Shown piece by piece: positions 5,115-7,372 of a stretch of 32,628 bases of DNA. The position numbers were made by a program, and so were the translations under genes. Position 1 is the stretch's first letter. Every line of letters starts with the position of its first letter. Where the stretch lies: assembly GCA_020847545.1 (NCBI GenBank), contig JADLBV010000023.1:1-32628 (forward strand), read 5' to 3'. Below the pieces are notes generated by a model, which was not told the DNA's origin, did not search any database, and saw nothing but the letters and a program-made list of their open reading frames with translations. Origin of the DNA: Phycisphaerales bacterium (GTDB taxonomy: Bacteria; Planctomycetota; Phycisphaerae; Tepidisphaerales; Tepidisphaeraceae).

Positions 5115-5873
5115 CTACTTCCGTCGACGCAATGCCAGCGCGCCCAGGCCAAGCAGCGAAAGCGCGGCCGGTTCGGGCACAGCCACCGGCGCGCCGTTCA
5201 CGTTCCATGCGACATAGTCCCAGGTCGAGCTGCCCAGTTCATCTCCACTACCATCACCGAAATACATTCCTCCGAAACCGGGATTTGAATCAAGCGATGC
5301 ATTGTTCACGACAGGGGTATTCATGTCGTCGATCCAGAGAGAGTACGTACCACCGTCTGTCGCAACGCGGTAGGTATGGTATTGCGATACGTCTAACTCC
5401 GCGATATTGGTTCGTGATTTCAGGAACACACCAGTTTTGGTGACCCAGCCGGTTTCCACGCCAGCGTAAGTTCCGAATTCAAGCTGCAAGTAGTAGCCAC
5501 TGTTGCTGCCGATAACCATTCCATCCCCAAACAACCCAGTTTGCGAATTCACCTTCGTCCGGAATTGCACATAAGCAACATTGCCCGAATCAGGATCCCA
5601 TGCGCCGCCGGAATTAATTTGAAAATATTTAGTCTCATTACTGACCGTGGTAGCAATGGTCATTTCGCCGCCGCTTACCGAGGCGCTGCCCGTACCACCG
5701 GTAATCCAAGATGGTGTGGAAACCGTGGGAAGGATATCCCCATCGCCCGTATAGGCGGAATCCCAGGTATATCCACCAACAACCACACTGGCCTGCGCGG
5801 CCGTCGAAAAGGCCAGCGTCGCGGCGAGTGCGCCCGTTGCCAGCAACATCGAACGTGAAATGAATCGCTGCAT
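5115..5873 (-). CDS. PEP-CTERM protein with lectin-like (LamG-type) body
   Basis: 252 aa. A signal peptide (basic start, then MLLATGALAATLAFSTAAQA) precedes a beta-rich domain. Its YHTYRV...YSLWIDD pattern is typical of concanavalin A/LamG-like jelly-roll modules. The C-terminus VPEPAALSLLGLGALALRRRK is a complete PEP-CTERM tail: motif, transmembrane helix and basic cluster. The start is firm: AGGAGG lies 6 nt before the ATG. No catalytic residues are apparent, so a glycan-binding or matrix role is the simplest reading. It is the promoter-proximal gene of the minus-strand block and diverges from the GntR-type regulator, with a TTGACA-type promoter and candidate operators between them. Confidence 0.8.
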   Translation of the reverse strand: MQRFISRSMLLATGALAATLAFSTAAQASVVVGGYTWDSAYTGDGDILPTVSTPSWITGGTGSASVSGGEMTIATTVSNETKYFQINSGGAWDPDSGNVAYVQFRTKVNSQTGLFGDGMVIGSNSGYYLQLEFGTYAGVETGWVTKTGVFLKSRTNIAELDVSQYHTYRVATDGGTYSLWIDDMNTPVVNNASLDSNPGFGGMYFGDGSGDELGSSTWDYVAWNVNGAPVAVPEPAALSLLGLGALALRRRK

Positions 5874-5917: not shown

Positions 5918-5947
5918 ATAATGTACACCCATTTTTGGGTTTGTCAA
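5918..5947 (-). promoter_or_regulatory. Sigma70-like promoter for the PEP-CTERM block
   Basis: On the minus strand, TTGACA (5947-5942) and CATTAT (5923-5918) are separated by 18 nt. The spacer contains a small palindrome, ACCCA-TTTT-TGGGT. The strong -35 match and the position about 45 nt before the start codon support it. Confidence 0.6.
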
Positions 5948-5957
5948 GTCGTGTACA
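5922..5957. promoter_or_regulatory. Candidate operator: inverted TGTACAC / GTGTACA half-sites
   Basis: TGTACAC (5922-5928) and GTGTACA (5951-5957) are inverted copies whose centres are 29 bp apart. Each contains the palindrome TGTACA. One overlaps the -10 of the minus-strand promoter; the other lies just upstream of its -35 and upstream of the regulator's promoter. Operators of AraR, a GntR/LacI hybrid like the neighbouring regulator, also contain GTAC-type palindromes. Binding by the product of the 6041 gene is inferred. Confidence 0.5.
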
Positions 5958-5972
5958 AAAAAAATACACAAC

Positions 5973-6000
5973 TAGACAAAATATTTAATCGTGGTATACT
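5973..6000 (+). promoter_or_regulatory. Sigma70-like promoter for the GntR/LacI-type regulator
   Basis: TAGACA (5973-5978) and TATACT (5995-6000) are 16 nt apart, giving a predicted start of transcription near 6007 and a leader of about 34 nt before the ATG at 6041. Confidence 0.55.
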
Positions 6001-6040
6001 GGGTTGATCAGCCACCTGTGGTCGATTTGCGTATATAAGA

Positions 6041-7372
6041 ATGAAATCCATGCCCAAACAGCCTCTCACGTTTCCGACCGTCACCCGGCAGATCGCCGAT
6101 CAACTCCAGCAGATGATCCGCGGCGGGCGGTGGCTGGCCGATGGAAAAGTCCCCCCCATGCGGAAACTGGCCGGCGAGTTCAACGTCAGTGCCGCCACGG
6201 TGCAGTCGGCGCTGCAAATCCTGCAGGACAAGGGAATTGTCGAAATGCGCGATCGGTCGGGCGTCTTCATCAATCGTCCCCGGTATCAATCCGCCAAGTC
6301 AACATATGTTGGCCTGCTGACCCCTTATCTTGAAGTGGACATGAGCGAGCAGGACCGCGAGCTGCTTCGGCGGCAGATGTCCTTTTCTTTTGATGCCGAT
6401 GAATGGTCATCGCACATCAATCGCTCATTTTTGCGAACACTCAAGTCGCACCACCTCGATTTGATGGCGATTCCCGTGCCGCTGGACCAGGGTGATTTTG
6501 CGGCCGCCGCCACGCAGCGGATCGAACGACTTGGCACGCCTTTGGCCGGCGCGATGTTCACGGCATTTGATTTCACGCGCCCGCTGGTCAAGGAACTTGA
6601 TAAACGCGACATCCCTTGGGTCACCATCAACCCCCTGACCCAGCACAGCGTCTATAATTTCGTCGCGGCCGACAATCTGCACGGTGGAAAGCGCGTTGGC
6701 CGATGTCTGGCGGCAATGGGTCTGCGCGAAGTGCTGGTTTTGTGCCGCTCGATGGGGTCGTTCCGGACGGATGTGGAAAAAACCCTTGGGTTGTATCAGG
6801 GTTACATGGAAAAGGATGTTCCGGTCGATCGGATCGTGACACGAACGGTCAAGGATCCGCTGGAAGCAACCGGTTATGCCCAAACCAAGGCCTACCTGGC
6901 CGAAACCGGCGGCAAGGCGCCTCAGGCGATCTTCGCCATCTCCGATTCGCTGGCGATTGGAGCGATCCGGGCCTTGCATGAAGCGAAATTTCGCGTACCG
7001 CAGGATGTCGGCGTGATCGGCGCAACCGGGCTGAACCTCGCATCCACCAGCGATCCCGCGCTCACCACACTGACCCAGCCCATGAACGAGATCGGTCATC
7101 AGGCCGGGGAAATGCTGACGTTTATGATCCGCGAAGGCGTTCGCCGGCTTGTCGGCCGGCGCGTGCCCGGGCCGTTGATCTTCCGCGATTCGATCCGCAT
7201 TCCCGAGGAACAGCGCAGGGAAGCCGATCTGGAATTTCAACAGACCGTCGAACAGCTTCGTGCCGTCGCGGTCGATGCGGTTGAAGCGACAATCCACCTG
7301 AAGGACACTCAGCTCACCGGCGATCCTGGCGGTGATTCGGACAACAGCGTGGAATCAACAACCGAACGCTAA
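6041..7372 (+). CDS. GntR-type regulator with LacI-like sensor domain
   Basis: 443 aa. Residues about 10-80 are a GntR winged helix-turn-helix: VPPMRKLAGEFNVSAATVQS followed by a short wing ending GVFIN. Residues about 88-395 are a periplasmic-binding-protein-like LacI effector domain, with DNLHGGKRVGRCLAAMG and IFAISDSLAIGAIRALHEA segments. This is the architecture of AraR, where a sugar releases the repressor from its operator. A hydrophilic 45-aa tail after residue 395 is extra. The ribosome-binding site is weak; ATG 6050 is an alternative start. It is transcribed away from the PEP-CTERM block, with paired TGTACA-containing sites between them, and reads towards the glycosidase-like fusion gene. 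It is likely the local sugar-responsive switch for both directions; the inducer is unknown. Confidence 0.88.
   Translation: MKSMPKQPLTFPTVTRQIADQLQQMIRGGRWLADGKVPPMRKLAGEFNVSAATVQSALQILQDKGIVEMRDRSGVFINRPRYQSAKSTYVGLLTPYLEVDMSEQDRELLRRQMSFSFDADEWSSHINRSFLRTLKSHHLDLMAIPVPLDQGDFAAAATQRIERLGTPLAGAMFTAFDFTRPLVKELDKRDIPWVTINPLTQHSVYNFVAADNLHGGKRVGRCLAAMGLREVLVLCRSMGSFRTDVEKTLGLYQGYMEKDVPVDRIVTRTVKDPLEATGYAQTKAYLAETGGKAPQAIFAISDSLAIGAIRALHEAKFRVPQDVGVIGATGLNLASTSDPALTTLTQPMNEIGHQAGEMLTFMIREGVRRLVGRRVPGPLIFRDSIRIPEEQRREADLEFQQTVEQLRAVAVDAVEATIHLKDTQLTGDPGGDSDNSVESTTER

Follow-up and report, generated by a model that had tools for sequence, protein, structure and literature searches.

How are a regulator gene and its divergently transcribed neighbour controlled from the 167-bp intergenic region that separates them in a Phycisphaerales bacterium? 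The window, which is the whole stretch of DNA analysed (32,628 nucleotides of contig JADLBV010000023.1), carries on its plus strand a gene for a regulator of 443 aa (6041–7372). This regulator combines a GntR-type winged helix (PF00392, residues 16–77, 8.6e-17) with a LacI-type sensor (PF13377, residues 223–384, 6.9e-25), and both domains scored above the cut-off. Divergent from it on the minus strand lies a gene for a secreted PEP-CTERM protein of 252 aa (5115–5873; PF07589, 5.2e-05), which is the proposed target. The original prediction was that an AraR-like regulator binds a pair of TGTACA sites in this region and represses by looping or cooperative binding. Literature searches for the phylum listed no title or abstract opening specific to these regulators.

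Divergent promoters and gene neighbourhood

Two divergent promoters had been proposed, and both were recovered by a consensus promoter scan, which supports the claim. The promoter-like site of the PEP-CTERM gene (5918–5947, minus strand) has the -35 box TTGACA (5947–5942), followed by CATTAT (N18), as previously described, or by TACATT (N16) as the -10 box. The promoter-like site of the regulator (5973–6000, plus strand) reads TAGACA-N16-TATACT. Three sigma-70-like sites were found against 0.5 expected, the earlier-named ones among them.

One ortholog of the regulator was found in a genome of the same genus (G001), with 89% protein identity and an identical best-matching winged-helix segment of 73 aa; the locus there retains the divergent PEP-CTERM and prepilin-like genes. 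Searches of 198 relatives, 392 phylum genomes, 26 family genomes and 397 class genomes (the last with the winged-helix segment), together with a contig search, yielded no ortholog beyond G001. Other matches were only 26–43% identical and were not treated as orthologs, and no plasmid match was found. The phylogenetic footprint is therefore thin, since the locus was found in two genomes and gives a single comparison. In this comparison, the spacing between the opposed -35 boxes, read from both sequences, is exactly 25 bp in the two species. The -35 box of the PEP-CTERM promoter is conserved in the alignment and its -10 box is not, and the regulator promoter of G001 reads TTGACA-N17-CATAAT.

Paired TGTACA heptamers

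The heptamers TGTACAC (5922–5928, plus strand) and GTGTACA (5951–5957) occur exactly at the positions reported earlier. In the window as a whole TGTACA shows no enrichment (three copies against 2.2 expected). Of the dinucleotide shuffles made from the intergenic region, 27% contained, within 40 bp, an exact inverted pair of 7 nt, so the heptamer pair alone is not significant. A search for TGTACA sites beside orthologues of the regulator then divided the two, and the half-site conservation on which the original prediction was to stand or fall held for one of them. The proximal TGTACA (5952–5957) is retained in G001 within a conserved block, whereas the distal TGTACA (5922–5927) has no counterpart at that point of the alignment with this sole ortholog, despite the identical matched DNA-binding segment. 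The distal TGTACAC, which overlaps the -10 box of the minus-strand promoter, is probably incidental, and the reported pair is most likely half real and half chance.

These results bear directly on the model in which the regulator occupies both of two TGTACA sites, 30 bp apart, cooperatively or with a small loop, as by AraR at two-box promoters. The heptamers do form an exact inverted pair, and TGTACAC-N16..28-GTGTACA occurs once in the 3.7-Mb genome, at this locus; moreover, where two boxes are in phase, AraR binds them cooperatively and forms a small loop (PMC4218819). However, the pair is within chance by shuffling, the distal site overlaps a -10 hexamer, so that TACATT or CATTAT explains part of its letters, and its loss from G001 leaves the model without conservation behind it. 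Cooperative or looping repression from two sites is thus improbable, and the looping part of the original prediction is not supported.

In the upstream regions of ten distant relatives, TGTACA occurred only in G106, where the recognition helix is different. Across both upstream surveys TGTACA was scarce in distant relatives, with G106 and the G031 locus L081 as the cases found; from the second survey, motif positions alone entered the analysis.

Conserved block and dyad between the promoters

Conservation with G001 is concentrated in one intergenic block, TTGTCAAGTnnTGTACAAAAAnAATACACnnnTnGACAA (5941–5979), which contains both -35 boxes and a probable operator. Within it 32 of 39 positions are identical, against 70 of 141 elsewhere in the intergenic alignment (~50%), an excess with a Fisher p of ~6e-4; the block alignment comprised 40 columns with one gap, and one column was counted as a gap in this test. 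Between the -35 boxes alone, the excess is modest (19/25 identical, p ~0.02). The probable operator core, TGTA-N9-TACA (TGTACAAAAAAAATACA, 5952–5968), lies between these boxes, and its TGTACAAAAANAATACA is kept in G001, as are the TGTACA of the proximal site and the AATACAC that faces it. One exact copy of TGTACAAAAANAATACA is present in each of the two genomes, the next best match having two mismatches, and a single copy fits a local regulator.

A palindrome search also detected an imperfect 41-bp dyad (5940–5980, centred at 5960), which had been overlooked in the first reading of the region. Its 16-nt arms, TTTGTCAAGTCGTGTA (5940–5955) and TACACAACTAGACAAA (5965–5980), are 88% complementary, and its score was matched by 1 of 300 shuffles. 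Part of this symmetry is promoter symmetry, because both opposed -35 boxes fall in the arms. In G001, symmetry is kept only for TTGTC.A....TGTA of each arm, and outside the -35 boxes the dyad is reduced to TGTA/TACA, which counts against a single operator.

We consider it probable, at roughly 0.6, that the adjacent GntR-LacI regulator has one operator in the region, placed between back-to-back sigma-70-type promoters and silencing both genes. The conserved block might instead lack a repressor site and be promoter sequence only, made up of two -35 boxes and an A-tract that serves as an UP element or a bend. The -35 hexamers account for 12 of the 39 block positions, the A-tract lies in the middle and the opposed boxes give part of the dyad; however, the conserved TGTAC and AATACAC that flank the A-tract are needless for -35 and UP elements, and a GntR-LacI regulator adjoins the region, which makes this explanation unlikely. 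The operator might also lie elsewhere, for example at the imperfect palindrome GGTTGATCAGCC (6002–6013), which the palindrome search detected directly after the regulator -10 box and at whose position some paralogous regulators have conserved repeats. This palindrome is lost in G001, and we regard such a placement as very unlikely.

Relation of the regulator to AraR

The regulator had been described as having the architecture of AraR. The domain order agrees with this, as an N-terminal GntR winged helix and a C-terminal LacI/GalR-type sensor define the AraR subfamily by architecture, and the AraR DNA-binding domain itself matches the regulator over residues 16–77 (E 0.0014). The label is limited to this architecture. 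AraR E30, R41 and R45 are residues that read or position DNA in AraR/FadR (PMC4218819, PMC4494728), whereas the regulator has Met40, Ala51 and Gln55 in their place, which sets it apart from AraR proper; residue equivalence was taken from the PdhR alignment (kLPPERELA / VSRPSLREA against KVPPMRKLA / VSAATVQSA).

The AraR box At(T/A)tGTaCGTAcaa(A/T)T is likewise absent from the window region, where the best match is 9/16 and typical of shuffles; in G001 the best match to the AraR consensus is 11/16, at another place. With the helix residues replaced and the box absent, the operator letters of AraR cannot be transferred to this regulator. The core TGTA-N9-TACA also differs from AraR's TTGTACGTACAA, and the resemblance of TGTAC to the AraR half-site may be taken as weak evidence. 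The neighbours scanned (BNR_2 sialidase-like, Gfo/Idh/MocA, prepilin-like, PEP-CTERM, and GH2-N plus PD40) included no recognisable arabinose gene.

Candidate operators and repeats at related regulators

Several other loci carry repeats or palindromes beside regulator genes. At L081 (G031:C270), ATGTACAGATGTACAT directly precedes a GntR-plus-sensor-like regulator gene, ~31 bp ahead of its first Met; it consists of two TGTACA hexamers in a nearly perfect palindrome and is likely the operator of its adjoining regulator. As it was found post hoc, it was left out of the support for the window operator. Upstream of the regulator gene at L034 (G000:C113), a -10-like TATTAT is spanned by the perfect dyad GTGTATTATACAC, which shares GTGTA/TACAC arms with the window dyad at a shorter gap. 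AGGACA repeats, partly aligned, surround the promoters upstream of the regulators at L035 (G000:C32) and L043 (G018:C27), whose proteins are 69% identical. L031 (G000:C154) and L040 (G001:C33), with regulators 75% identical, have a common GTCCA-[AG]-TCTGGCCTATT after the promoter as a candidate operator. The paralogous regulator frame at L036 (G000:C45:267-1439) has two internal stop codons in the match, which may reflect a pseudogene or an error of assembly.

Discussion

We infer binding, repression and an effector for the single operator as follows. The regulator would occupy the core TGTA-N9-TACA between the two -35 boxes, where it would obstruct RNA polymerase at the two promoters, silencing the regulator gene as well as the PEP-CTERM gene divergent from it; binding of a sugar or glycan breakdown product to the LacI-type domain would release the regulator.

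Known systems offer partial likenesses. Divergons of the FadR and HutC subfamilies of GntR regulators usually have a single central site that serves both operons (PMC4494728), and in Bacillus subtilis AraR is known to regulate its own gene from a single operator close to the regulator promoter (PMC4218819). The likeness to the latter lies in the GntR winged helix plus LacI-type sensor, and the araR promoter has a single box. However, the FadR and HutC divergons use GT-Nx-AC motifs that the window site does not appear to match, and the N9 spacing of the core exceeds theirs, which counts against a single operator. Against the GntR-family consensus NyGTNxACNy, GT and AC are 11 bp apart in TGTA-N9-TACA and have no gap in TGTACA alone; this consensus is not universal within the family (PMC4494728). 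A more novel and rather doubtful reading gives the GntR-LacI regulator a rewired recognition helix and, as its target, an unusually wide dyad, TGTA-N9-TACA. This dyad would be symmetric with the two -35 boxes that face each other, and a single dimer lying between the promoters would thereby touch both.

The region is most likely an ordinary local repressor switch, an arrangement that is common. The testable operator shifts from the TGTACA pair to one 39-bp block. To our knowledge, planctomycete-type genomes hold many GntR-family regulators, with few known operators, and the genome of the window has 55 GntR matches. A defined operator site at this locus would be locally useful and generally unsurprising.
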